A DNA stretch of 29,646 nt from Candidatus Omnitrophota bacterium. Its GTDB lineage: Bacteria > Hinthialibacterota > Hinthialibacteria > Hinthialibacterales > JAKPRU01. The DNA lies in contig JAKQSI010000028.1 of the NCBI GenBank assembly GCA_029570205.1, positions 1 through 29,646 of the forward strand. Reading direction: 5' to 3'. The notes beneath the pieces were generated by a model. The model ran no database searches, had not been told where the DNA came from, and worked only from the letters and a program-made list of their open reading frames with translations. Position 1 is the stretch's first letter. Every line of letters begins with the position of its first letter. The translations under genes and the position numbers were made by a program. Below are positions 3,514 through 19,695 of this stretch, in pieces.

Positions 3514-4335
3514 ATGAAAAGACATGCAGCCATATCGGTTTTTCTAATTCTCTCGTTTTTCGCGCTTCCGTCCCGGGGTGTGGATGTGGAATCCCTGATT
3601 GAGCCGCTTGGTTCGTCGGATGAATCCTCGCGCCGGGCGGCGTATCAGGCGCTTGTCGAACAGGGACCGGAGGTCCTGGAGCGGCTGTTCCAGGCGATGG
3701 ATCCCGAACAGAAAACGCTCAACCTGTGGGCCAGGAACACGGCGGAGCGAATTGTCCATAATGCGGGCAGCCCGGGCGCGGAGCCTCAGCGTGTTCAGGC
3801 CGAATCCGCCCTGTTAAGCGTGATTCAATCCACGTATCCCCGCCAAACCAAAGAGTTTGCATTGCGGCTCCTCGCGCGGATTGGGACGGAACGCTCGGTC
3901 CCGATTTTGGCGGAAGTACTCAATGACAAGATACATCGGGAGACGGCGCGATGCACGCTGGTTATGATTCCATCCCGTAAGGCGACCGCCTCGCTGGTGA
4001 AAGCCTTGAAAGGCACGGAAGATCCGAACTGGAAAGTGGCTCTAATCAATGCGCTTGGGGAACGGGGAGACGCGGCGGGCAGATCGCCTGTTCTGAAAGC
4101 TCTCCAGGATGAGAATCGGGAGGTACGACTTGCCGCAATTTCCGCGCTTGGCAGAATAGCGGATGGAAAGAGCGTCTCCGCGCTGTGGAAGGTCTGGGAG
4201 AAAGACGATTCATCCGAGAAAGCCGCCGCGACGGATGCGCTTCTGAACGCGGCGGAAGACATGTCCCGGTCACCGAAGAAAGAGAAAGAAGCCAGGAAGA
4301 TTTATGACCGGTTGCAGATCGCCGAGCGGTCGTGA
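3514..4335 (+). CDS. Secreted HEAT-repeat protein
   Basis: The product is 273 residues. The start at ATG 3514 is chosen because GGAGAGGA (3499-3506) lies seven bases upstream and the protein then opens with a clean signal peptide (MKRHAAISVFLILSFFALPS, cut near residue 22). The mature part is made of repeated helix pairs typical of HEAT/PBS-lyase repeats. Examples are SSRRAAYQALVEQGPEV, RQTKEFALRLLARIGTERSV and NREVRLAAISALGRIADGKS. These are protein-binding scaffolds without catalytic residues. It follows the Tat oxidoreductase by 30 bp and overlaps the next gene's GTG by 4 bp, so the three are probably one operon. It may hold an envelope complex together, but its partner is unknown. The C-terminal 30 residues are Lys/Glu-rich. 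Confidence 0.8.
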   Translation: MKRHAAISVFLILSFFALPSRGVDVESLIEPLGSSDESSRRAAYQALVEQGPEVLERLFQAMDPEQKTLNLWARNTAERIVHNAGSPGAEPQRVQAESALLSVIQSTYPRQTKEFALRLLARIGTERSVPILAEVLNDKIHRETARCTLVMIPSRKATASLVKALKGTEDPNWKVALINALGERGDAAGRSPVLKALQDENREVRLAAISALGRIADGKSVSALWKVWEKDDSSEKAAATDALLNAAEDMSRSPKKEKEARKIYDRLQIAERS

Positions 4336-7070
4336 TAATAAGGGCGCGCGAATTAGCGAAATCAGGTGTAACGTTGGGAAAAAGGCAAAACAAATCCACA
4401 TTATCCAAACTGGAAGATATTTTACTGGAAATGGCCTTCTGGGTTCTTCTGACCCAAATAATGGCGACTGCGATATATTTCACCGGCAAGTTCTCCAATC
4501 CGCAGATTCACAAAGAACTGATCGCCCAATTCTGTGCGGCTACGGCAGTGGGATTGTGGTTCGCGGCTCTGGCAATTCGAGGAGAGTTTCGAATCCGGTT
4601 TACCGCATGTTATGTTCCGCTGATATGGCTCATTCTCTGGTCGGCCTTTCGGACGCTGACTTCTCCCACTCCCTTGTCGACACGGAAATTCATGCTCGTG
4701 GCGCAGGTTCTGATGGCCCTGCCGGTCTGGGTCGATTTGCTGGAATCTCGAAGACGTCGCCTGCTCCTGGTTTGGGGGATCTTCCTGACGGCCTGTGCGA
4801 TTGGGGGAGCAGCATTGCTGGAATCGTTCGGCTATTACCCGTACCCGCTCACTCCCGGCGATTATCACCGCCAACGGCTCGGTTCGTTTCTGGGACACAA
4901 CAATCCCGTGGCGGCGTATCTTCTCGTCGGCAGCATATACGGGATCGGGCTGGCGATGCGGTTTCGTGACCGATCATGGAGCATGATCCTTTATATCATT
5001 CTTGCGGTGAATCTCTATTTATTCCTGCTTTCCGGCACTCGGGGCGCGTGGATTTCGTTTCCCTTCGCCATGGCGGCCCTGTTCCTGGGCGTTTTCGGAT
5101 TTCGAGTTCCAAAGATCGCTCCACAGACCGCGCGAAAAGCGCTTTTGCCTGTGCTGGTTTGTCTCGTACTCGGTATCGTTGGCGTCGTCGCGTACAATCT
5201 GGTTGCTCTCAATCCCGATACGCCCAGTTTTATGGATCGGATCTATGATTTGAAATTCGCTTATGCAGGGACCTACCCTCGCACGTGGACCATGTCGTTG
5301 AAAATGTTCGCGGAGAATCCTTTTTCGGGGGTAGGATTCGCTGCCTGGTCGTTCATGTATTCGTTTGCTCAGGGCGATTGGTTCGCAAAGTATCCCGATA
5401 CAAACCTGGGGCTGCCTGGAGTGGGCCAGTACACTTTGCGCGCTCACTCAGACTATCTGCAACTCGCCGCCGAACTCGGCATTCCGGGTGTGCTGCTGTT
5501 GATCTGGCTGTTGATCTGCTATTTTCGAGAGGTTTGGCGATTCATCTCAAAAGAGCCACGTTCCCAGTTTGCAACCCTTGGCTTTGCCGCGATGACCGCA
5601 ACCATGGCGCACGCCCTGGTATTTTTCCCGTTCCACGAGGCCGCCGCCTCCTGCCCGTTTCTGGCTGCCTGGGCGCTGTTTATTGTCAGCCGAGGGGGCA
5701 GAGGTGACTCGGGTGAGATCGACGTATGCAGGGGCGACGCATGCGTCGCCCCTACATGCGTTATGTCCACAGCAAGATCCCCTCTCCCTCCCGGAGAGGG
5801 CCGGGGTGAGGGCGTTTATCCCGACCGCCTCCTCCGATTCTCCGGTCCCAATGCGCGCTGGATCACCGCCCTGGGCGCAGTTTTCTTCCTCCTGTTTGCC
5901 ACACGACCCGTCGGGAAATTCGTTACGGCGGATACCCTCAGCAGTCAAATGTGTGTGAAACTTCCGAAGGGGCAGACCAGCGATCTGGGATGGGGATACA
6001 AAGCCGGCGCCGTTGTGTGGGAAAACTGGGCAAGCGATTACGAACGCCAGGGAAAGTACGATTACGCTTTGTCGGCCCTTCAGGAAGCGAAGTTGGCGCT
6101 GGAAAAGAGCCTCGAACTTGATCCGAATTTCCCCCAAATCTCCTATCAATACGCCGCTCTCTGTTTTCGAATCGCCGATCTGAAATACCGAATCGAAAAA
6201 AAGACCGATGCGTATCAGGAAGCCATGAAAGCCATCGAGCAATCCCTGAAGGTTTACACCTGGCATGGGTCTTTCCACATGTTGGCTCGGTGCGCCACCG
6301 TTCTCTGGAAAGAGACGGGGGATGAGCAGTACTACCAGATTGCCGTAAAAAATCATGAACAGGGATTGCGGAACTATCCGCTCAATTTTCCGGAGATCGC
6401 CAATTTGGGCAAGCTGTATTATGACCATGGGGACAAACAGAAAACCATTGATTTGTTTTTCACCAACTATGCTCAGTTCAAGGAACACCAGGCCGAATTC
6501 CTGGCGCTGCTGTCCGAACGGGGACAAATCGCATGGATACAGAATCGTCCCACGGACGCGGATTTCTACCTGACGATGTGTTCCGCGCTGGACAGTCAGA
6601 ACTGGGAAAGACGATACTCCCTGGCCCTGTTCTTCTTGCAGTACAAGCGATTCGATGCGGTTTTGCGCGTGTTGAAGGAACATTTGCGAGTGCAACCGAA
6701 TGAATTCCAGCTCATGCCACGCTTGTTTGATGTGTGGATTCAAAACGGCGATCCGCAACAGGCTGTCGAGACCGCCATTCAACTCTTCCAGGGAACCGAT
6801 TACAGCCCTGTGATGCACAGCCACCTGCGCGCAATAACCGCAACCTTTCTTCTGAAAAGAAAATATGAGGAGGCGGATCGGTTGCTTGCCGGTCTTCCCG
6901 ATTCCTATACGGCGCCGGTCAGAAAAGACCGTGCGCTCACCCAATGGCTGAAAGGCGATCCGTTGGGAGCGATGTCAAGTTGGACGCTTTGGTTGCAGGA
7001 ACATACGGATGATGCGGATGCAAAGACCGGCATTGTGGCGAGCTTCTATCTTCTATCTCCGCAGGTTTAA
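4332..7070 (+). CDS. O-antigen ligase/polymerase-like membrane protein with C-terminal TPRs
   Basis: The product is 912 residues. The GTG start overlaps the previous stop (GTGA, 4332-4335); an ATG at 4431 is an alternative. About the first 460 residues are multi-spanning membrane segments of the Wzy_C / O-antigen ligase superfamily. They include the large periplasmic loop with ENPFSGVGFAAW, HSDYLQLAAELGIPGVLLL and FPFHEAAASCPFLAAW, which are the usual landmarks. A last helix (about 505-525) leads into some 380 residues of tetratricopeptide-type helices (YDYALSALQEAKLALEKSLE, FPEIANLGKLYYDHGDKQKT). Such proteins transfer or polymerise undecaprenyl-linked glycans onto lipid A, polysaccharide or protein; which one is not readable. 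The loop at about 455-495 is encoded by two dispersed-repeat sequences (see entries at 5726 and 5779). A paralogue lies at 11635-13485. Confidence 0.85.
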   Translation: MIIRARELAKSGVTLGKRQNKSTLSKLEDILLEMAFWVLLTQIMATAIYFTGKFSNPQIHKELIAQFCAATAVGLWFAALAIRGEFRIRFTACYVPLIWLILWSAFRTLTSPTPLSTRKFMLVAQVLMALPVWVDLLESRRRRLLLVWGIFLTACAIGGAALLESFGYYPYPLTPGDYHRQRLGSFLGHNNPVAAYLLVGSIYGIGLAMRFRDRSWSMILYIILAVNLYLFLLSGTRGAWISFPFAMAALFLGVFGFRVPKIAPQTARKALLPVLVCLVLGIVGVVAYNLVALNPDTPSFMDRIYDLKFAYAGTYPRTWTMSLKMFAENPFSGVGFAAWSFMYSFAQGDWFAKYPDTNLGLPGVGQYTLRAHSDYLQLAAELGIPGVLLLIWLLICYFREVWRFISKEPRSQFATLGFAAMTATMAHALVFFPFHEAAASCPFLAAWALFIVSRGGRGDSGEIDVCRGDACVAPTCVMSTARSPLPPGEGRGEGVYPDRLLRFSGPNARWITALGAVFFLLFATRPVGKFVTADTLSSQMCVKLPKGQTSDLGWGYKAGAVVWENWASDYERQGKYDYALSALQEAKLALEKSLELDPNFPQISYQYAALCFRIADLKYRIEKKTDAYQEAMKAIEQSLKVYTWHGSFHMLARCATVLWKETGDEQYYQIAVKNHEQGLRNYPLNFPEIANLGKLYYDHGDKQKTIDLFFTNYAQFKEHQAEFLALLSERGQIAWIQNRPTDADFYLTMCSALDSQNWERRYSLALFFLQYKRFDAVLRVLKEHLRVQPNEFQLMPRLFDVWIQNGDPQQAVETAIQLFQGTDYSPVMHSHLRAITATFLLKRKYEEADRLLAGLPDSYTAPVRKDRALTQWLKGDPLGAMSSWTLWLQEHTDDADAKTGIVASFYLLSPQV
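5726..5757. repeat. Perfect 24-bp palindrome, dispersed repeat inside coding sequence
   Basis: Positions 5730-5753 are a perfect palindrome centred on GACGCATGCGTC, with arms of 12 bp. After one mismatch it extends three more base pairs on each side. The GGGGCGACGCATGCGTCGCCCC core is a repeat I recognise as widespread between genes in many uncultivated and soil bacteria. Here it lies in frame within the Wzy/WaaL-TPR gene and encodes the Cys/Ala/Val-rich loop RGDACVAPTC. Confidence 0.7.
5779..5814. repeat. Second dispersed repeat (CCCTCTCC...GGAGAGGG...GGGGTGAGGG type) in coding sequence
   Basis: CCCTCTCC (5780-5787) and GGAGAGGG (5793-5800) form 8-bp arms, followed by CCGGGGTGAGGG. This is the common element that gives the SPLPPGEGRGEG peptide when translated, as it does here. 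It begins about 20 bp after the previous palindrome and is in the same reading frame. A related copy sits at 12154-12187 in the paralogous gene. Confidence 0.7.
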
Positions 7071-7097
7071 CTCAACTTTGACTTGGAGGTCATCAAC

Positions 7098-8378
7098 ATG
7101 AGAGTACTGATCGTCGGCAGCGGAGGAAGGGAACATGCGTTGGCGTGGAAACTCGCTCAGTCTCCTCACCTTACAAAACTGTTTTGCACGCCCGGTAATC
7201 CGGGTATCGGGAATCATGCGGAGTTAATCGCTGCCGGGGCAGGCTCCGTGTCCGATATTGCAGACTGGGCTAAAGAGAATGAAATAGACCTGGTTGTGGT
7301 CGGTCCTGAAATTCCGCTGGCCGAAGGGATTGCGGATTGTCTTCATGAGCGCGGCGTGCCGGTTTTCGGTCCAGATCGGAAGGCTGCGCGAATCGAAAGC
7401 AGCAAGGTATTTGCCAAAGAGTTGATGGATCGCCACGGAATCCCGACAGCCGAGTTTGTGGTCTGCGATACGGTGAGTCAAGCGGAGGAGGCAATCCGTC
7501 AATTTACATCCGAGGGCAAACAGGTTGTTGTGAAAGCGGATGGCCTGGCGGCGGGGAAAGGGGCGATTGTCACCAAAGGTCGGGATGAAGCGCTGGAAGC
7601 CGTTCGACGGGTGATGGTAGACCGTGTGTTCGGTTCTGCCGGGGATCGCGTGGTGATCGAGGAACGTCTTCGCGGCCCGGAGACCTCCATTCTGGCCCTG
7701 ACAGACGGAGAGCATCTGGTTGTCCTCCCGCCCTCACAGGATCACAAGCCGATCGGGGAGGGCGACACCGGACTCAATACGGGGGGCATGGGCGCATACA
7801 GCCCCGTTCCACTGGTGGATGACAGCCTCCTGAACCGCATCGTCAAGACCATTTTGCGTCCCACTATCCGGGCTATGAAACTGGAGGGATGTCCGTATCG
7901 CGGAACCCTGTACGCCGGTTTGATGATCGTGAACGGAGACCCTTATGTGATCGAGTTCAACTGCCGGTTCGGCGATCCGGAGACCCAGGCGGCGCTTCCG
8001 GTTGTGGAGGAGGACCTCCTTCCGTTACTGAAACAGTCTGCCGAAGGGAATCTCGGTCCCGACCGTATCGTAAATGCGAATGGCACTGCGCTTTGTGTGG
8101 TAATGGCATCCGGCGGATACCCGGAATCTTACGAGACGGGGAAATCCATTGAGGGGCTTGAAAATGATTTGGGTGAGGGAATCGTTGTTTTCCACGCGGG
8201 GACCGCCATGAAAGATGGGCGCTTGGTGACTGCCGGAGGCCGAGTGCTTGGGGTGACCGGGGTCGGGAGAGACTTTCGTGAAGCGGCCAAACGAGCGAAT
8301 CAGGGAACATCGCAAATCTCGTTTGATAAAGCGTACTATCGTCACGACATCGGATATCGCGTTTTGGGAGTTACTTAA
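7098..8378 (+). CDS. purD: Phosphoribosylamine-glycine ligase (GAR synthetase)
   Basis: The product is 426 residues, the normal length for the family. It joins glycine to 5-phosphoribosylamine using ATP, the second step of de novo purine synthesis in the cytosol. The start ATG 7098 has TTGGAGGT (7083-7090) seven bases upstream and gives the classic opening MRVLIVGSGGREHALAWKLA. Further family landmarks are VVVGPEIPLAEGIADCL, the ATP-grasp stretch VVVKADGLAAGKGAIV, LPPSQDHKPIGEGDTGLNTGGMGAY, and the metal-binding YVIEFNCRFGDPETQ. The gene is 27 bp after the ligase-like gene and could be transcribed with it, though the functions are unrelated. Its stop overlaps the convergent hydrolase gene by 8 bp. 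Confidence 0.97.
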   Translation: MRVLIVGSGGREHALAWKLAQSPHLTKLFCTPGNPGIGNHAELIAAGAGSVSDIADWAKENEIDLVVVGPEIPLAEGIADCLHERGVPVFGPDRKAARIESSKVFAKELMDRHGIPTAEFVVCDTVSQAEEAIRQFTSEGKQVVVKADGLAAGKGAIVTKGRDEALEAVRRVMVDRVFGSAGDRVVIEERLRGPETSILALTDGEHLVVLPPSQDHKPIGEGDTGLNTGGMGAYSPVPLVDDSLLNRIVKTILRPTIRAMKLEGCPYRGTLYAGLMIVNGDPYVIEFNCRFGDPETQAALPVVEEDLLPLLKQSAEGNLGPDRIVNANGTALCVVMASGGYPESYETGKSIEGLENDLGEGIVVFHAGTAMKDGRLVTAGGRVLGVTGVGRDFREAAKRANQGTSQISFDKAYYRHDIGYRVLGVT

Positions 8379-8946
8379 TAATTTTCAATATCTCTTTGAA
8401 CTCCGGTTTTGCGGCATCCTCCAGCATTTCCAGCAGCGCGGATTCCACGCTGGTGATGGTCACGCCCGCCTGACGCATCCGTTCCAGGGCGATATCCTGG
8501 CATTTGGCGCAGCGCGAAGAGGTTGCCTCAAACGGCACATGAACCTGGTATCCGTGCCCCACCAAATCCAGCGCCGTCTGCAACACGCACACATGGGCCT
8601 CGATCCCGGCCAGAATCACCTGTCGGCAGGCACGCTCTGACAGGAAGTGCATAACTTCCGCAGAGCCGCAACAGCTGAATGTGGTCTTTGAAAAGATCAG
8701 ATCGGAGGGAATTCGCTCTCGGATTTCGGGAACCAGTGGCCCGAGTCCCTTGGGATATTGCTCTGTGGCAATGACCGGCATTTTCAAGACCGAGCATCCG
8801 TTGAGCAGACCAAGCGTCTGACCGATCACCCGTTCCGACTCCTGAATCACCGGAATCAAACGCTCCTGGATATCCACAATAATTGCGACCGCACTGGCCG
8901 CTCGAAGGATTCCCGGATGCCGTCGATACGTTCTCTTGTCTATCAT
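8371..8946 (-). CDS. Isochorismatase-family cysteine hydrolase
   Basis: The product is 191 residues, the usual size for a single-domain isochorismatase-like hydrolase. The catalytic triad can be read directly: Asp25 in VAIIVDIQERL, Lys87 in LIFSKTTFSCC, and the nucleophile Cys120 in GIEAHVCVLQTALDL, preceded by the usual cis-peptide region. The sequence is closest in feel to the YcaC / isochorismatase-domain-1 group, whose substrates are mostly unknown, rather than to nicotinamidase, whose zinc-binding motif is absent. It overlaps the upstream RsbW-like gene by 4 bp (ATGA), so the two are translated together. Its 3' end overlaps convergent purD by 8 bp. Confidence 0.88.
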   Translation of the reverse strand: MIDKRTYRRHPGILRAASAVAIIVDIQERLIPVIQESERVIGQTLGLLNGCSVLKMPVIATEQYPKGLGPLVPEIRERIPSDLIFSKTTFSCCGSAEVMHFLSERACRQVILAGIEAHVCVLQTALDLVGHGYQVHVPFEATSSRCAKCQDIALERMRQAGVTITSVESALLEMLEDAAKPEFKEILKIIK

Positions 8947-9404
8947 TCGCTCTGTTTCCTTTCCTTGCCGCCCGACAGTGCCTGTTTTTCCATAATGCTC
9001 TTCGTCAGGTCTTTTCTCAGGTAAAGGATCGTGCCTTCCGGCGGTGAGGTATCGTATCGAATCTCATCGAATACCGATCGGATAATATGCACGCCCAATC
9101 CACCCGGTCTGATATCGTTCAAGTCACGCGACTTGATTTGCTCAAGAGGAACCTTTTTGCCGTAATCCCGAAGGGTGATAGACAGCTGCTTGTCCCGACA
9201 AGTGACATTCAGTTCCACCGGTCCATCTTTTCTGCCTTCGTAGGCATGACGCATGATATTGGTAAATGCTTCATCAACGCCCAGTGTCAGCAAATTGCAC
9301 TCCCGTCCCGGAATTAAGTGCAACTCCAGGACGGCGCGCAGCATGAGACGGACATGTGACCACATGGTCGGATCGCTGGGGAACGTTACACGAAAACCGT
9401 CCAT
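8943..9404 (-). CDS. RsbW/SpoIIAB-like serine kinase (HATPase_c_2), putative anti-sigma factor
   Basis: The product is 153 residues from ATG 9404, where an AGG lies five bases upstream. A GTG at 9434 would add ten residues. The GHKL ATPase boxes are clear: the N box LGVDEAFTNIMRHAY, the G1 box LRDYGKKV, and the G2 box PGGLGVHIIRS. This small stand-alone form is that of RsbW/SpoIIAB proteins, which phosphorylate an anti-sigma antagonist and bind a sigma factor. No antagonist (STAS) or sigma gene is next to it, so the target is unknown. It overlaps the downstream isochorismatase gene by an ATGA, an unusual pairing. The C-terminus is a Lys/Glu-rich tail. Confidence 0.87.
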   Translation of the reverse strand: MDGFRVTFPSDPTMWSHVRLMLRAVLELHLIPGRECNLLTLGVDEAFTNIMRHAYEGRKDGPVELNVTCRDKQLSITLRDYGKKVPLEQIKSRDLNDIRPGGLGVHIIRSVFDEIRYDTSPPEGTILYLRKDLTKSIMEKQALSGGKERKQSE

Positions 9405-11634: not shown

Positions 11635-13485
11635 CTATCCCAATTGCTTTAATGCTTCAATCCTTCGCCGGGCCTTCGCCGCTTCCTCCTCCATACCGTG
11701 TTTCTTGCACATCTCTTCCAGTTCTTCCCAATAGGGGATATAGCCGGGGTTCAACCGGAGAATTTGCCGTTGCTGCTCGATCATGGCTTCCACCGCGCCC
11801 AATCGCGCACAGATGTCCCGCAAGGCCAGGTGGGACGAAAAATCATCTTGAAGCCGCAAAGCATCCAGATAAGCATTGGCCGCCTCTTTCAAAAGACCCG
11901 CCTCGTAATAAGCCTCGCCGAGATACATGTAGTTCATCGGCTCCAGGGGATCGAGAACCACTGCCCACTGAAACTTGTCCAGCTCGATTACCCCCCGCTG
12001 ACGCGCTTCAAACCCCCGCCGAAGATAAACATTCGACAAAAACGGAAGAACCAATGGAATCATCAAAACCAGGCAAAGGCACACCCCATAAGCCGGATGG
12101 AAAGAACGTTTCCCTCTCGCTTCTGACGGTCCCCCTCTCCCTTCCGGGAGACTCCCTCTCCCCCCGGGAGAGGGTTGGGGTGAGGGAGTTCCAGGAAGCA
12201 AGATAGACAACCAGATCAACACCGCCACTGTGCTTGCCGGCAAATGAAACGGAAAACTGGCCAAGGCATGGAAAACAGCCATCATGAATCCCAGGAATAC
12301 CGCCGTCAGGAGCACGCGACTTTCCCCGTCCGCCCGACGGAGGGTTTGTAATGACCTCTTGATTACCGAAACCAGCAGCCACAGCAACAGAAAAACGCCC
12401 GGAATCCCGCTTTCCGCGCACGTTTCCAACAGCTGATGATGGGGTTGATCCACCAGTTTGACATAGGGGCTGGGATGTGCCCGTCCCTGTAATTCATAAT
12501 TCTTACCCTGGTAGGCCATGGAATACGCCTGGAAATTGCCGAAACCGATTCCCAGAAACGGATGCTCGTTAATCATCAACCGCGTGGTGCGCCAATTGAA
12601 TCGACGTGCCGCAAATCCGGTCCGCCACTGCGGTGAGGCTTTCGCCTGATCCAGAACGCTTCCTTCCCGACCGTTATATGGATTATCCGTGCAATAAAAT
12701 GTCGTGATCCCCGCCGCCAGAAAAAGGAGAATCCACAGCCGTGCTCCGAGCAGCTCCCTCAATCCGTGACGAATGGTGCGGAAGAACAGCGCGAACGAAC
12801 TCGCCAGCGCCAGTGCCAAAGCCGCTCCCACACAAAAAGTCGTCACAAACACGGCAACGCACAATCCCACAACAGGAACCGTAACCAAGCTAAACCACCA
12901 TCGCGACACACCGCGAGCGCATCCATGCGCGATCAGAGCGGGAAACAGGATCACGAGGTAACCCGCAACAAAGTTTGGATTGCCCATCGTCGAGACAATC
13001 CGCGCGCGCCAGTCGTTCACACCGCCGGTTGTTTGAATGAAATCCACCCCGTAATCCTGAAGTACCGCATATACGGCTATTATCAAAACGGGAAAATGAA
13101 GCCACTCGATCAGAGCAGACCGGTTCTCGCGTTGAGTCCACAATTGCCGACAAATCGCCCAGAACAGAACCGCCGTAATCGGCCCGGCGAAATCCCGCAC
13201 CTGTCGAAACGAATGAAATCCTGTCAGGATTGTAATCGCAGACCAGCCCAGGAACAGACCAATCGGCCACCACAGAGGGTCTCGCACCGGAGTAAAAATC
13301 CGTCTCGACCCGGCAATCCACACAGCCGTAATTGCCAGGGTTAATACCTGGAACAAGACTCGTTTCGGAAGGAGGTACGAATCATAGGAAATCGGGGAGA
13401 TAAACAACGGCACAACTACCGCAGTCAGAATTGCCAGACCGCGAACAAGTCTCCAGGAAAATCCATCCTGCCCGTTCTTATCCAT
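11635..13485 (-). CDS. O-antigen ligase/polymerase-like membrane protein with C-terminal TPRs (second paralogue)
   Basis: The product is 616 residues. It starts with ATG 13485, overlapping the end of the upstream DUF2723 gene by 8 bp. About a dozen membrane segments fill the first 430 residues. The Wzy_C/WaaL landmarks are NEHPFLGIGFGNFQAYSMAY, QPHHQLLETCAESGIPGVFL and FPFHLPASTVAVLIW. After the last helix, some 130 residues of TPR-like helices end the protein (PMNYMYLGEAYYEAGLLKEA, YIPYWEELEEMCKKHGMEEE). It probably joins or polymerises lipid-linked glycans at the periplasmic face. The loop before the final helix (about 435-455) is encoded by dispersed-repeat DNA, at the place equivalent to that in the paralogue at 4332-7070. 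It is likely translationally coupled to the DUF2723 gene. Confidence 0.85.
   Translation of the reverse strand: MDKNGQDGFSWRLVRGLAILTAVVVPLFISPISYDSYLLPKRVLFQVLTLAITAVWIAGSRRIFTPVRDPLWWPIGLFLGWSAITILTGFHSFRQVRDFAGPITAVLFWAICRQLWTQRENRSALIEWLHFPVLIIAVYAVLQDYGVDFIQTTGGVNDWRARIVSTMGNPNFVAGYLVILFPALIAHGCARGVSRWWFSLVTVPVVGLCVAVFVTTFCVGAALALALASSFALFFRTIRHGLRELLGARLWILLFLAAGITTFYCTDNPYNGREGSVLDQAKASPQWRTGFAARRFNWRTTRLMINEHPFLGIGFGNFQAYSMAYQGKNYELQGRAHPSPYVKLVDQPHHQLLETCAESGIPGVFLLLWLLVSVIKRSLQTLRRADGESRVLLTAVFLGFMMAVFHALASFPFHLPASTVAVLIWLSILLPGTPSPQPSPGGRGSLPEGRGGPSEARGKRSFHPAYGVCLCLVLMIPLVLPFLSNVYLRRGFEARQRGVIELDKFQWAVVLDPLEPMNYMYLGEAYYEAGLLKEAANAYLDALRLQDDFSSHLALRDICARLGAVEAMIEQQRQILRLNPGYIPYWEELEEMCKKHGMEEEAAKARRRIEALKQLG
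12133..12187. repeat. Tandem full and partial copies of a dispersed repeat in coding sequence
   Basis: A full unit at 12154-12187 has arms CCCTCTCC (12154-12161) and GGAGAGGG (12167-12174) followed by TTGGGGTGAGGG. A truncated unit (CCCTCTCCCTTCCGGGAG) lies at 12133-12150. Read on the minus strand it encodes the low-complexity TPSPQPSPGGRGSLPEGRGG within the second ligase-like protein. It belongs to the same family as the repeat at 5779-5814, inserted here in the opposite orientation relative to the gene. Confidence 0.7.
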
Positions 13486-15118
13486 TCCCGATACTTTCTT
13501 TGATGGAATTCGACTTATTGGGAGTCATATCCGGGTGAAGCAGAAACACGGTTCCCCACGGCAAGTATTCTCCGTAGTATGAATCGGTAAATGACCGCTG
13601 CTCCAACAGCAATTGTGCGCCGCAATCTTTCCAGAGGCTTACCCCACGCCACTGGGCCACGTAAGCGGGAGGGATGGTCGAGCAGATCGGACGTTTGTCC
13701 TTCGATGTCAGGATAATCCCAGACCAGACATCCTCATACCATTCCGTCGGTGTTCGATACTTGCCCAGGGGAAGCGGCTTGAGCCGGATACCGATCCCCT
13801 TCCCTGCCAGTTTCTCTCGATACCACGGCAACGCCAGGAAACCGTTTCCGATAGGATCTACATCCGGCCTGCGATGTTCCACAGTCTGCTGATAAATCAG
13901 AGGGAAAATCTCGTTGTCCTGGGATGGTTCGTACAGACCGACAAGGAGCAAAGCATTTGGCGGAAGAATCCGCAGAACATCCTCGCTATACCGAAAAGCC
14001 TCTGTGTCATCTCGAACGAGGGCGACCCTCCAGTAGGCACGTACAACAGGAAGCAACAGCAACAGGAGGCACAGCAAGATCACCCCACGTTCCATTAAAT
14101 GCAGCTTCCCAATACACCATTCCAGACCCAGACAAACAAGCGGAGCGGAGACCAGAAGAAAAGGCAACACAAAAACATCTCGATCCCCCACCAGGTAGAA
14201 CAGAAAAAAAGCCGCGTAAATGCAGAGAATTGAAAGATAGATCACTGTGCATCGCTTTTCTCGTCGATACAGCCGCCACACTCCAACAAAGAGCAGAGGC
14301 AGGAATATCCCCCAAGGCCAAAACAGGGCACACAAGTCCAGGAAAAATGCCTGGAGTGGCGAGTTCAGGAACCGGAACAACCCCCGCGAAAGATTCCCAA
14401 CAAACTCCCCGCCGGTTAGTAAAGCCATCCATCCCTGGAACGACGCGGGATGATACCAGTCCAACTCCACACCCGCGCGGGACCGGATCATTGGAATCAA
14501 AAGGAGCAGAAGCGGCAGTATGATGAGCAGGAAAAACCGCTTACGCACTTGCCACAGCATCCAGACAAGAACCGGCAGAACGATATAGTGATGAACCAGC
14601 GAGACTCCCGCCAGAAGCCAGGCAAAACCGGAGAAATCTTTTCCCGGCTGTTTTGCACAAAGGCTGAGATACAGCGCAACCGAGAGGAACAGCGCCAGCA
14701 GGGCATACACTTCCGCCGAGCGGGCGATACCCCAGAAAACCGGCGCAGTTCCCAGCCAGAGAACGCAGGAGATTCGGGATATGAGTTCCATGGGTCCGTG
14801 ATTCATTGCAAGTGTCTCAGCCGCTCGATACAGGAAAACCAGCGCGCACGATGCACACAGGGCCGACAGGATGTGTATCCGCATCATGACGGTTCCAAAA
14901 GGCACAATGGACAGGAGTTTTCCCAGGACGACATACAGCGGATATCCGGGGGGGTGCGGGACTCCCAGGGTGGCACAAGCCGTGATCAATTCCGGGGCAT
15001 CGCCCCAGGGAAGCGCAGGATGCAGCGTTATCAGGTAAAATGCGAACACACACAGGAAAATCGCTACCGAGTCTTTCGGCGATGAGTGATGAACATGAAC
15101 ATTCGAGGTGGAAGGCAC
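13478..15118 (-). CDS. DUF2723-family polytopic membrane protein (GT-C-like)
   Basis: The product is about 546 residues from a GTG at 15118. A longer frame back to 15253 would run antisense through the divergent neighbour's first codons and is unlikely. No ribosome binding site is clear, so the start is uncertain. Early in the protein HPALPWGDAPELITACATLG and GVPHPPGYPLYVVLGKLLS are the hallmark of DUF2723, related to TMEM260 and other GT-C glycosyltransferases. The acidic residue after the first helix is the usual catalytic candidate. About ten further membrane segments follow, then a soluble C-terminal domain (NALLLVGLYEPSQDNEIFPL). It probably transfers a sugar from a lipid carrier at the outer face of the membrane. 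It is coupled by an 8-bp overlap to the ligase-like gene. Confidence 0.82.
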   Translation of the reverse strand: MPSTSNVHVHHSSPKDSVAIFLCVFAFYLITLHPALPWGDAPELITACATLGVPHPPGYPLYVVLGKLLSIVPFGTVMMRIHILSALCASCALVFLYRAAETLAMNHGPMELISRISCVLWLGTAPVFWGIARSAEVYALLALFLSVALYLSLCAKQPGKDFSGFAWLLAGVSLVHHYIVLPVLVWMLWQVRKRFFLLIILPLLLLLIPMIRSRAGVELDWYHPASFQGWMALLTGGEFVGNLSRGLFRFLNSPLQAFFLDLCALFWPWGIFLPLLFVGVWRLYRREKRCTVIYLSILCIYAAFFLFYLVGDRDVFVLPFLLVSAPLVCLGLEWCIGKLHLMERGVILLCLLLLLLPVVRAYWRVALVRDDTEAFRYSEDVLRILPPNALLLVGLYEPSQDNEIFPLIYQQTVEHRRPDVDPIGNGFLALPWYREKLAGKGIGIRLKPLPLGKYRTPTEWYEDVWSGIILTSKDKRPICSTIPPAYVAQWRGVSLWKDCGAQLLLEQRSFTDSYYGEYLPWGTVFLLHPDMTPNKSNSIKESIGNG

Positions 15119-15137
15119 GTTGACGTCGGCGGATCGT

Positions 15138-16850
15138 ATGAGAGACTTAGTCAATATTGTCCCGATAATACCCAAAAAAACCTTGCGTAAAAACCTGCTC
15201 GGATTTGCCGCATTATACCTGATCCTTGTGGCAATTGTCACTTGGCCCGCCATTTTGAATCCTGCGTGCCTGGCTTTTCCGTATCAAGGCGACCGGGGGG
15301 CGAATGTCTGGAACCTGTGGTGGGTAGCGCACTGTGTGACCCACCTGCAAGATCCCCGATGGACGCCACTTCTGTTTCATCCGGATGGCTGTTCGCTTCT
15401 GCACCACTCTCTTTCTCCGTCAAATGGGCTGCTTCTGGCGCCGGTGACTCTCCTTTTCGGTCCGGAGACCGCGTATGGCGCCGCATTTTTTCTCTGGAGT
15501 ATCCTGACCGGCCTGGGAGGAATGGTCTGGTCGCGGCGATGGCTCGACCGTCCCTGGGAGCAATGGCTTGCGGGATTTTTCATGGTCTGTTGTGCCTATC
15601 GCTTTGCGCACCTGGATCACCTCAACGTGTTCTCAACTGCCGGGATACCATGGGCCTTTTGGGCATTTGACCGATCGAAAGATAAACACGATCTGCGCAT
15701 GGCGCTGGTGTGTGGCGTGATCTGGATTCTGACGACATTCTCCTGCTGGTATTACGGAGTGGTGGTCGGTCTCTACGGCGTGGCCCGATTGTTGGAGATT
15801 GTGTGCAAGCGGCAATCCTTACGAGAAATTGGAGTAGCCCTGATTCCATTTGCCCTGACCTTGATGGTTGTGGCGGGATATCTCGGCATTCCTCTACCCG
15901 GTCCCTCGGCGAAGCCGGATGACATACCGCTTGGAATCAAAGTTTTCTGGTCCTTGCCGCTTGATTCCCTGGTCCGTCCTGTCTGGTTGAATCCCCTCTG
16001 GATGTTGCCGGAGTTTCGCGTTCATCCGGGAATTGTCTTTTTGATTCTGGCGGCGATTGAGATCGTTCGCAGAATTCAAGAGCATGAAAAACAGGCCTTT
16101 CTCTTGTGGATTGCATTAGCCTATGCGGCCCTCGCCCTGGGACCGGTGTTGAAGGTGGACATGAAAGTCTTTCCTGTTCCTCTTCCCGCATACATCTGTC
16201 TGTTGATCGCCGGATTGAGCCAAATGAAAGTGTACACACGGTTTCTGTACCCGGCAACGATTTGTCTTGCCCCATTGGCTGTTCTGGGTGTGCGGTGGTT
16301 AGTCGACAAACTTGGAGAGGAACATCCGCATGTCTCTTTCCCTGTTCTCCAGGCAATCGTTTTTCTGTTGGTAGGATTTGCATTCTGGTTCGAGCAGGCT
16401 CTACCGCCGTTTGCCTCTGCGACCGTCTATTCCGGGAAGACTCAAGTAGCCGATGATGCCCCCATTCAGGCCATCCGGGAGGCGCGCGGCGCGGTGCTGG
16501 AACTACCGTTTGGCGCCAGTTCCGTTGTCGGGATGCACTTGGCCCGTCAAACCCGACACAGGTTACCGTTAGTCATCGGGGAAATCTCTCGAATGCAGAA
16601 TTACCGCAAGACGTTCCTGGACCGATTTCCGTCTCTTCTCCTCCTGAACCAAATGGTCACGGAGGAGGGAGCCTGGTCTGAGGCATCCATCCACGGAGCA
16701 GCGGAGACTTTTGCACGGGATAATGAGACACTCGGTATCGGGGCAATTGTGGTGACAGAATCGTTGTGTGCACAGCAGGGAAAAGAGCGGATTATGGACT
16801 TCCGAAATTACTTGGGGAACGATGTTCAACTGATTATTATTCGCGAATGA
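15138..16850 (+). CDS. Polytopic membrane protein, GT-C glycosyltransferase-like
   Basis: The product is about 570 residues from ATG 15138. A GTG at 15108 would add ten residues but would overlap the divergent gene's start. The first helix is followed by FPYQGDRGANVWNLWWVAHC and LFHPDGCSLLHHSLSP. This GD...N.W..WW / F.P.G..L..H pattern is found in large membrane proteins of the GT-C superfamily and related uncharacterised families. Some ten membrane segments follow, then a C-terminal soluble region (ARGAVLELPFGASSVVGMHL). The acceptor and donor cannot be inferred. It is divergent from the DUF2723 gene and closes the envelope-glycan block. Its stop is 37 bp from the convergent nuclease-like gene. 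Confidence 0.7.
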   Translation: MRDLVNIVPIIPKKTLRKNLLGFAALYLILVAIVTWPAILNPACLAFPYQGDRGANVWNLWWVAHCVTHLQDPRWTPLLFHPDGCSLLHHSLSPSNGLLLAPVTLLFGPETAYGAAFFLWSILTGLGGMVWSRRWLDRPWEQWLAGFFMVCCAYRFAHLDHLNVFSTAGIPWAFWAFDRSKDKHDLRMALVCGVIWILTTFSCWYYGVVVGLYGVARLLEIVCKRQSLREIGVALIPFALTLMVVAGYLGIPLPGPSAKPDDIPLGIKVFWSLPLDSLVRPVWLNPLWMLPEFRVHPGIVFLILAAIEIVRRIQEHEKQAFLLWIALAYAALALGPVLKVDMKVFPVPLPAYICLLIAGLSQMKVYTRFLYPATICLAPLAVLGVRWLVDKLGEEHPHVSFPVLQAIVFLLVGFAFWFEQALPPFASATVYSGKTQVADDAPIQAIREARGAVLELPFGASSVVGMHLARQTRHRLPLVIGEISRMQNYRKTFLDRFPSLLLLNQMVTEEGAWSEASIHGAAETFARDNETLGIGAIVVTESLCAQQGKERIMDFRNYLGNDVQLIIIRE

Positions 16851-16887: not shown

Positions 16888-17397
16888 TCATGGGATAGAT
16901 CGTCGTATGGGAAAGTCTTTCAGATGTTTGTTCCACGTTGAGAGATTGAACACCATTACATCCTCAACAATCCAGTGTTTCCATATCCCGCTTGATGGGC
17001 CGCATTGAGGCACCTTACGTTTGAGATCGTCCGCTTTTGCCTGAAGATCGGCTTCCGTCAGGCCGTCAATGGCTATCAGCACATAATAATAGATAGGTTT
17101 CTCTATTTTCCCGCATGCCCATTCATACAGGAAGGAGTCTCGATATTTGTACTTCAGGTCTTCGTCGATTTTGCCGGTCTGAAATTTCTTGATAAAAGTG
17201 TCACGATCCATTGCATTGGCTTGCGGATGTTCCGGATCTTTGATCTCGATGAACAGAAAGTGATCCTTGAATTCCAGAATAAGATCCACCGCTTTCATGC
17301 AATGTGTAAGACCGTGGGTGTCGCCGATATCAAATTTCCTTGCAGTTACATCGGACGGAACGGATATCCGAAGATTTCCTTCTGTGATCGCAGTCAT
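16888..17397 (-). CDS. PD-(D/E)XK nuclease-like partner of the adjacent ATPase
   Basis: The product is 169 residues. ATG 17397 overlaps the ATPase stop by 4 bp (ATGA), which decides the start over longer upstream in-frame codons. The segment MKAVDLILEFKDHFLFIEIK has the spacing of a PD-(D/E)XK active site: Asp38, a hydrophobic strand, then Glu51-x-Lys53. It is followed by helices and a YYYVLIAIDGL strand, in keeping with that fold. No DNA-binding domain is apparent. The assignment is by motif only; I do not recognise a named family. Tight coupling to an AAA_21-type ATPase resembles ATPase-nuclease defence pairs such as Septu or Gabija in layout, though the sequences differ. Confidence 0.65.
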   Translation of the reverse strand: MTAITEGNLRISVPSDVTARKFDIGDTHGLTHCMKAVDLILEFKDHFLFIEIKDPEHPQANAMDRDTFIKKFQTGKIDEDLKYKYRDSFLYEWACGKIEKPIYYYVLIAIDGLTEADLQAKADDLKRKVPQCGPSSGIWKHWIVEDVMVFNLSTWNKHLKDFPIRRSIP

Positions 17398-18416
17398 TTC
17401 AGTAGTCTCCCCAGACTTCGCCCCACTTCGCGGTCGTATAGATCGGCGAATGCCTCCGCGACGGCATTTGGATGAATGCCGAGGTATCGGTCGGAGGTAT
17501 GGCAACGAATCTGAGTGATCTCCGTGTCATGATAGAGAGCATGAAACAGCACATTATCCTTCTCTTTCATCCGCAGATCGAGTTCCTTGAGGATCACGTA
17601 GTCATGTGTCGCTAGAAAGATTTGGACACCGTGTCGTTGAAGTTCCAACAGGATCTCCGTAATCACTCCATATAATTTGGGATTGAGGTTGGTTTCCGGC
17701 TCATCCCAAAAGAGTATGGAACCCTCCAGGAGAGTTCCATTTTGAATCAAGAGCCATAGCAATCCCAATTTGCGCATTCCTTCGGCCAATAGAGAGAATT
17801 CAAGGTTTCCCTGCTCGCTTTGTAGAAAAAATTCCTCCTCCTTTGTTGTGATTTTCCCATCCATGGCTTTCTGCAGAATGGTCAATAGAGTTTTTCGGTT
17901 CTTGTCGGTGGGGCCTCGCGGGGCAGGCCGATGGGCACGGTCCAAAATGTCGCGATAGATTTCCTCAAAATGGATTTCTCGACCGGCGTATAATGAACGG
18001 AATCCGGGAGAATTGGCAAGCATTTCTTTTACAGGGATATATACGCTTTCAATGGGCCGGGCCTGCCACTCGTTTATGCCGGTAATGGAGGCCGAGCCCG
18101 TCTTGGTCGAATGGTTTGAGAAGGAAGCCCGTATTCGGACGGATCCCCGGGATACTTCAATAGCACAAGACGAACTGGTTTTCTTTCGCTTGACCAGGCG
18201 GCCAAGCGCATGGTTGGACGGCAAGAATACGTTAACCAGTTTTTCTGCGAAGTTGAGTTTTGTTTTCGTGATGTCACAGGCGGAGTAGACAACTTTCATT
18301 ATGTGGGTTTTGCCCGTGCCGTTGGCTCCAACAAAAACATTGACCCCGGGTGAAAGAGTGAGATCCAGTTTATCGAACGTGGTGAACTATTCCAGTTTGA
18401 TTCTTGTTATCGGCAT
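17394..18416 (-). pseudogene. AAA_21/ABC-type ATPase interrupted by an in-frame TAG before Walker A
   Basis: The frame from ATG 18416 (GGTGGA upstream) reads MPITRIKLE, meets TAG at 18387-18389, and continues without a break as FTTFDKLDLTLSPGVNVFVG and on to the stop at 17394, 340 codons in all. Walker A (GANGTGKT, 18306-18329) lies after the TAG. Walker B (GSILFWDEPETNLNPKL), the signature-like EFSLLAEGMRKLGLLW and the switch FLATHDYVILKELD follow in order. Between TAG and Walker A there is no ATG, GTG or TTG, so re-initiation (first ATG at 18299) would give a protein without its P-loop. TAG is a normal stop in this window, so this is either a nonsense mutation (for example from AAG), a sequencing error, or read-through. 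Apart from that codon it looks intact. Confidence 0.8.
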
Positions 18417-18510: not shown

Positions 18511-19695
18511 TCACTTCAGCTCCGGCAGCAACTTCATTGGGTTAATCGGATTGGTCGCCTCGCGGACCTCGAAATGGAGATGATCGGTTTGAATGTCTTT
18601 CGGGACCCTTCCGGTTCGACCGACCCGCGCGATCATCTGCCCCCGGCTCACTTTGTCCCCCGCCTTCACCACCACTTCGCTGAGATGGGCATAAATGGTG
18701 CGCAATCCTTTTCCTTTTTGTTTGCCGTGATACAGAATGACATAGTTTCCCAGAGTATTCCCGAAGTCGTCACTGACCCCGCCGACCATCTGCACTTCCC
18801 CATCTGCCGCGGCCAGCACCGGAGATCCGGGGGGGGCAGTCAGGATCATGCCGTTTCCCATCAATCCGTTCTCCGCGCCAAATTGTTTTGCCACGGCAAA
18901 ATTCCCTGTCAGAGGCCAGGAGAATATCAATGTATCGACTTTCTTTACCTGGGCCGGCGGCTGAACATCCTGGGGAGCGGGGACTGCGGTCGGTTCCGGA
19001 GTGGGAGTCGGAGTTGGAACGCCCGGTTCCGGAGTGGGTGTCGGGGTTGGGGTGGAAAGAGGCGGCTCTCCTTTCTCCACACGATGCTCATCCACAAGTT
19101 TCTCAATCCGTTTCGCCAAAGCGATCCGTTCTTCGCGGGAACCCTCCGGTGTCTTGTGATACACCTTTTCCGCAACCGACATCTGGACCTCTTTGACTTC
19201 ATCCGCGCCGGGGATGAACAGTTTCTGTCCGATCTGCAATGTGCGGGGATCATGGATGTTGTTGTATCGTTCGATCAGCGTTCGTTCGACACCATAGGCG
19301 TCCGAGATCCGTTTCAGAGTTTCTCCCGCTTTAACCTCATGGTAAACCCCTTTTTCCTCGGGGGCCGCCGCTTTCACAGCCACAGCCGATTTAGGTTCCG
19401 TAGCGCCCGGAATATGCAGGCGCTGTCCCACTTCCAAATGATTGGGGTCATGAATGCGGTTGATCCGCTGAATTCGTTGAGGCGTGATTCCATAGGCACG
19501 TGCGATTCCCACCAGAGTCTCCCCTTCCGCCACAATATGCGTAACCCCCTCCAACACAGGTGGATATCCCACATAGCCCCGGTCCGACTGGTGCGCACAG
19601 GACCCCATCAGTCCTGCCCAGATGCACAGACACAGCAAAACACTCCGCGCATTTCTCGGACAAAATCTTGATCGGCATTTCACGACATTCATCAT
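18511..19695 (-). CDS. LysM/M23 lipoprotein with degenerate metallopeptidase site (NlpD/EnvC-like)
   Basis: The product is 394 residues. Residues 11-33 form a lipoprotein signal (SVLLCLCIWAGLMGSC) with the lipid-bearing Cys near residue 33. Two LysM domains follow (HIVAEGETLVGIARAYGI and YHEVKAGETLKRISDAYGV), which bind peptidoglycan. A Pro/Thr linker with two PTPTPTPEP units comes next, then an M23/LytM domain. The late motifs YAHLSEVVV and DHLHFEVR are present. The first zinc-binding motif, normally HxGxD, reads GLMGNGMILTAPPG with no His or Asp, so it is probably not an active peptidase. NlpD and EnvC share this trait and activate amidases during cell separation; that role is inferred. A second ATG follows directly at 19692. 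Confidence 0.88.
   Translation of the reverse strand: MMNVVKCRSRFCPRNARSVLLCLCIWAGLMGSCAHQSDRGYVGYPPVLEGVTHIVAEGETLVGIARAYGITPQRIQRINRIHDPNHLEVGQRLHIPGATEPKSAVAVKAAAPEEKGVYHEVKAGETLKRISDAYGVERTLIERYNNIHDPRTLQIGQKLFIPGADEVKEVQMSVAEKVYHKTPEGSREERIALAKRIEKLVDEHRVEKGEPPLSTPTPTPTPEPGVPTPTPTPEPTAVPAPQDVQPPAQVKKVDTLIFSWPLTGNFAVAKQFGAENGLMGNGMILTAPPGSPVLAAADGEVQMVGGVSDDFGNTLGNYVILYHGKQKGKGLRTIYAHLSEVVVKAGDKVSRGQMIARVGRTGRVPKDIQTDHLHFEVREATNPINPMKLLPELK
18991..19050. repeat. Imperfect 27-bp direct repeat encoding PTPTPTPEP units
   Basis: The segments 18991-19017 and 19024-19050 are near-identical, both opening CGGTTCCGGAGTGGG, with a 33-bp period. On the minus strand each encodes a PTPTPTPEP unit of the linker between the LysM and M23 domains. 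The plus strand is G-rich, with GGGTGTCGGGGTTGGGGTGG at its end, which could form a G-quadruplex. The unit number may vary between strains. Confidence 0.65.

Follow-up and report, generated by a model that had tools for sequence, protein, structure and literature searches.

The window studied here, a stretch of 29,646 nucleotides from a Candidatus Omnitrophota bacterium, carries on its minus strand two coupled genes (16888-18416), one for an ABC/Rad50-type ATPase and one for a small protein with a nuclease-like motif. This arrangement raises the question of whether the pair is an anti-phage system of its own kind and whether it is able to work in this organism.

Layout and identity of the gene pair

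The ATPase gene (17394..18416, minus strand) comprises 340 codons, and the gene downstream of it (16888..17397, minus strand) is intact and encodes a protein of 169 amino acids. Both are coupled by an ATGA stop/start overlap (17394..17397) in which the ATG that starts the partner runs into the TGA that ends the ATPase frame upstream. The ATPase is marked by a Walker A motif GANGTGKT (residues 30-37; 18306..18329), a Walker B acid pair D238-E239 within FWDEPE (17700..17705), and an H-loop histidine, His271, within ATHD (17604..17606). Invariant in an alignment of 60 sequences are K36, D238, E239, Q265 and H271. The putative catalytic core of the small protein, D38 ... E51-x-K53 (17239..17286), is similarly conserved: D38 and E51 are present in all 74 aligned sequences and K53 in 73 of them, with K84 and W139 being the other invariant residues. 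The original prediction had placed both genes, their coupling and the D38...E51-x-K53 pattern exactly. It was also correct about the flanks, which are a convergent gene for a 580-amino-acid membrane protein of glycan type (15108-16850, plus strand) and a gene for a LysM/M23 lipoprotein (18511-19695, minus strand), and about a location outside an obvious island; the surroundings of the pair are of housekeeping type.

Two repeat features were seen elsewhere in the window. The LysM lipoprotein has a PTPTPEP linker, which is encoded by a short tandem repeat (18991-19050). Within a 912-aa ORF for a membrane protein (4332-7070, plus strand), a palindrome with 22-nt arms is followed in frame by a CCCTCTCCC...GGAGAGGG stretch (5722-5761), and together they look as though a small mobile repeat had entered the coding sequence; a similar stretch of the PSPGGRG type occurs in a 616-aa ORF (11635-13485, minus strand).

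The pair had been regarded as distinct, and its small partner could not be matched to a named family, a view that has to be revised because PADLOC-DB 2.0.0, dated 2023, lists the pair as HEC-02A/B. The ATPase matches the HEC-02A model PDLC04213 with 430.9 bits (1e-129; residues 1-336 aligned to model positions 1-335 of 337), and the partner matches the HEC-02B model PDLC04229 with 186.7 bits (6e-56; residues 1-166 to 1-167 of 171), E-values that place the pair beyond chance. Judged by these profile matches, the locus is a copy of the already catalogued, little-studied two-gene candidate anti-phage system HEC-02. Both proteins match over their full length, and gene order and coupling are identical; the window copy differs by a stop at ATPase codon 10 and by its location outside any defence operon. 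Embedding in a defence cluster is how the HEC group was discovered and not a strict requirement for membership. Models PDLC04145/04146 carry A/B labels that are reversed relative to the other HEC-02 models, which we treated as a naming quirk. Pfam and NCBIfam recognise the ATPase alone, as AAA_21 (67.3 bits in Pfam) and general ABC types; searching both with HEC-02B gave no family match, and a profile search of PDB sequences returned only ferritin, a chance match.

HEC stands for Hma-embedded candidate, a designation that PMC12988326 traces to Payne et al. 2024 (bioRxiv 10.1101/2024.01.29.577857); the same paper records antiviral activity for several HECs including HEC-06. HEC-05 and HEC-06 are described in PMC11411939 as GmrSD-like proteins of the set which function independently. 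No paper naming HEC-02 was found among the open publications on defence that were searched.

Predicted folds and relation to known systems

The AlphaFold2 model of HEC-02B, computed from the 74-sequence alignment, has a mean pLDDT of 92.4 and a mixed alpha/beta core with strands at residues 39-42 and 47-53, helices at 62-94 and a strand at 102-108. The first of the motif residues, D38, immediately precedes one strand, and the other two, E51 and K53, lie in the next. The model thus displays the alpha-beta-beta-beta-alpha-beta core with D...(D/E)-x-K in central strands that is expected of PD-(D/E)XK enzymes. Such enzymes also lead the list of structural matches, among them BstEII (Z 6.7), Nt.BspD6I (6.4), Cdn1 (6.2), Can2 (6.1), McrC (6.1), XisH and FokI. 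Matches to solved structures are weak, with Z at most 6.7 and a best Foldseek E-value of 0.03; as all of them fall below Z 8, the assignment is based on topology and the invariant D/E/K residues and not on a strong structural match. With this qualification the predicted fold resembles that of PD-(D/E)XK nucleases, as had been anticipated from the motif. The ATPase was modelled from the intact congener copy and not from the window copy (pLDDT 91.3). Heads of SMC, Rad50 and PtuA matched this model at Z 18-20.6, and its top Foldseek match is PtuA of Septu (E-value 6.5e-14).

HEC-02 shares with the PtuAB proteins of Septu and of retron Ec78/Eco7 a Rad50-like ABC ATPase encoded upstream of a small nuclease. 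However, PtuB is an HNH nuclease whereas HEC-02B is PD-(D/E)XK-like; no HNH family match for the partner was obtained in Pfam, NCBIfam or PADLOC, and PtuA profiles reach only about 38 bits on the window ATPase. PARIS likewise combines an AAA_21/AAA_15 ATPase, AriA, whose profile PDLC02980 scores 69.6 bits on the window ATPase, with a small effector. This effector, AriB, is a Toprim/DUF4435 protein, in contrast to the PD-(D/E)XK-like HEC-02B, for which Pfam, NCBIfam and PADLOC contain no AriB family match. Gabija and the OLD nucleases also follow an ATPase-with-nuclease logic, but there a Toprim domain on the same polypeptide as the ATPase serves as the nuclease, whereas that of HEC-02 is a separate small protein. 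Neither the ATPase-Toprim fusion GajA nor the helicase GajB of Gabija has a counterpart at the locus, the 340-codon ATPase being devoid of a Toprim match and no helicase gene being adjacent. Finally, SduA of Shedu is a PD-(D/E)XK nuclease, and four of the 74 HEC-02B members weakly match SduA_C (best E-value 0.01, near noise); unlike HEC-02B, SduA is a single protein without an ATPase partner.

An in-frame TAG and the three states of the site in the genus

While the Walker A, Walker B and H-loop motifs of the ATPase had been recognised correctly, the frame thought to carry them is not open. Codon 10 of the frame starting at 18416 is an amber TAG (18387..18389), located upstream of Walker A. Neither ATG, GTG nor TTG is present as a start codon between the TAG and Walker A; the next possible start, ATG40 (18299), lies past the P-loop lysine, and the longest listed ATPase ORF begins there and lacks Walker A. 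A whole-genome search of the source assembly recovered the same single TAG and found no second intact HEC-02A elsewhere in that genome. Decoding of TAG as an amino acid is not supported because TAG is an ordinary stop in the window, where it terminates 4 of 20 genes, and because relatives have various sense codons at this position (N, R, H, K, G, Q, D or S in the 60-sequence alignment).

In all three genomes of the genus (L007 and L008 being among the congener loci) the pair occupies the same site, with the LysM lipoprotein gene on one side and the glycan-type membrane gene on the other, and the locus is found there in an intact, a TAG-interrupted and a deleted state. The copy in G001 is intact and has CGA at codon 10; identity of the window ATPase to the intact congener copy L003 amounts to 79%. 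In G002 the ATPase gene has suffered a large out-of-frame internal deletion, ACG replaces its start codon, and codon 10 is CAG, which is one transition from TAG. Given that TAG is an ordinary stop and that both congeners have a sense codon at this position, the window copy is probably inactive. The window thus harbours an HEC-02 locus, of which the partner gene alone is open, but probably not a functional HEC-02 system: HEC-02A has most likely been inactivated and an intact nuclease gene left behind.

Downstream of the TAG the ATPase gene is under strong purifying selection (dN 0.12, dS 1.06 in comparison with G001), which implies that the stop is recent, or an error, or suppressed. A sequencing or assembly error, with the pair intact and working in the source organism, would account for a single lesion in 340 codons, for the selection acting downstream of it and for the ATPase start codon being in place, and the genome is a draft of 131 contigs. 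Consensus substitution errors are uncommon, however, and the independent loss of the ATPase in G002 makes decay at this locus plausible; hence, we regard an error as unlikely. The most economical interpretation is a fresh nonsense mutation at a locus whose loss is already under way in other members of the genus.

Pairing, genomic context and proposed function

Scanning with the partner alignment yielded 75 loci from many phyla. Wherever enough sequence was available, the ATPase gene was almost without exception located directly upstream of the partner; only a truncated partner remnant (L069) clearly departs from this pattern. Gene spacing in 76 related loci ranges from a 36-nt gap to a 17-nt overlap, with a 4-nt overlap in 51 of them. 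When the search was started from the ATPase, 12 of 386 sampled genomes were found to encode it, at 14 loci. The partner was detected by profile at 10 of these (three weakly), and the remaining four have a small downstream frame in which a D/E...E-x-K signature was discerned by eye. Unpaired ATPase homologues, which would have contradicted the original prediction, were therefore not encountered among the 14 loci. The partner occurs in 4 of 14 genomes of its class, and HEC-02 relatives reside on two plasmids (31-37% identity) and four viral contigs; the phage records searched contained no match.

Decayed copies are found in several lineages. An intact partner lies beside a broken ATPase in the window and at L008, L013, L031, L041, L077 and L079. 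Preferential decay of the ATPase with retention of the nuclease was considered and rejected, since the ratio of broken ATPases to broken partners, 7 to 2, is that expected from the lengths of the genes alone (p 0.73). At L013 (Dehalococcoidia; 4393-9239) three copies of the same 392-aa transposase-like ORF and one IS5-like ORF interrupt HEC-02A, the partner being intact. The intact pair at L033 lies downstream of a degenerate second HEC-02A (Synergistota; ~7806-8776), which resembles the remains of a tandem duplication.

BREX genes are located in or beside 3 of 20 sampled HEC-02 loci, which are phylogenetically scattered. In a gammaproteobacterium (L010; BrxC..PglX-[HEC-02]-PglZ) the pair is inserted between PglX and PglZ, at L017 ([HEC-02]-BrxHI..PglZ) it adjoins BrxHI with PglZ further on, and the third arrangement is [HEC-02]-PglX-PglZ-BrxL (L067). 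Two further loci adjoin a type I specificity subunit (L032) or lie near a PD-T4-4 ATPase (L045), and strong PADLOC matches are absent from the vicinity of many relatives. No BREX genes were among the matches listed for 20 control regions of the same genomes, a difference that is not significant (3/20 vs 0/20; Fisher p 0.23) and that limits our claim to embedding in particular cases; a broad enrichment in defence islands is not claimed. PADLOC families matched numbered 125 around HEC-02 loci and 19 in the control regions. The neighbourhood survey suggested along with the original prediction thus bears out conservation of the pair, but only modest enrichment near defence genes. Similarly, the proposed defence logic of an ATPase with a nuclease fits a conserved pair that is sometimes part of defence operons, but the interrupted ATPase of the window probably leaves no working cassette there.

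From the strict pairing and the occasional embedding in defence operons we infer, with good support, that phage defence is the role that best describes the pair. That the pair is instead a chromosomal module for DNA repair or housekeeping, of the Rad50-plus-nuclease type and with no part in defence, might be suspected from the Rad50 and SMC folds closest to the ATPase, from the site fixed between housekeeping genes in the genus, and from the many relatives away from strong PADLOC matches. It is distinctly unlikely, however, in view of the patchy occurrence of both genes, their decay in several lineages, the three scattered associations with BREX operons and the relatives on plasmids and viral contigs. 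A toxin-antitoxin type of function, in which the ATPase restrains a nuclease toxin, has a precedent in PARIS, where AriA holds the effector AriB in check. The two genes are small and coupled, and Pfam annotates AAA_21 as a putative AbiEii toxin. Yet intact partners persist beside broken ATPases at seven loci, which would not easily be tolerated if they were toxic, and gene length suffices to explain the excess of broken ATPases; we therefore consider such a function very improbable.

A different variation on the theme is offered by G047. On its contig 154, L108 (1417-3058) contains a second HEC-02A, a member of the close family (556 bits), the other copy in this genome being internally deleted, and the protein encoded downstream is a very diverged one of the ELKGE type that escapes the HEC-02B profile, which suggests partner exchange. 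Considering that a small D/E...E-x-K gene is present at each of the 14 ATPase-first loci and that several partners, including this one, are barely recognisable, HEC-02A might conceivably be a common sensor ATPase that swaps nuclease partners, and a lone retained nuclease such as that in the window may act by itself or with another ATPase. This idea appears rather improbable to us.

Our preferred reading, to which we assign a probability of roughly 0.7, is that HEC-02 is an ATPase-licensed PD-(D/E)XK nuclease in intact relatives and that the window copy is most likely inactive owing to a recent TAG. In intact relatives, production of the Rad50/SMC/PtuA-type ABC ATPase HEC-02A and of the minimal PD-(D/E)XK nuclease HEC-02B would be coupled, and the two proteins most likely assemble into a complex. 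PtuAB and Rad50-Mre11 are precedents for an ABC ATPase acting with a nuclease. By analogy, an ATPase dimer would sense DNA ends or a product of the phage and bring the small nuclease into position: on meeting a DNA structure or protein of the invader, ATP binding or hydrolysis would place or license HEC-02B, which would then cut, presumably, DNA. The small size of HEC-02B, which comprises little beyond the catalytic core, fits the need for a targeting partner. In the window, the TAG at codon 10 would remove the P-loop-bearing N-terminus, leaving an inactive ATPase and the nuclease gene.

With the present analysis, an unstudied candidate system gains a concrete and testable mechanism, in which a Rad50/PtuA-like ATPase would gate a PD-(D/E)XK nuclease and for which the invariant residues are named. 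A profile match alone would score the window copy as an active defence system. The genus to which it belongs provides an example of one fixed HEC-02 locus in intact, stop-interrupted and deleted forms.
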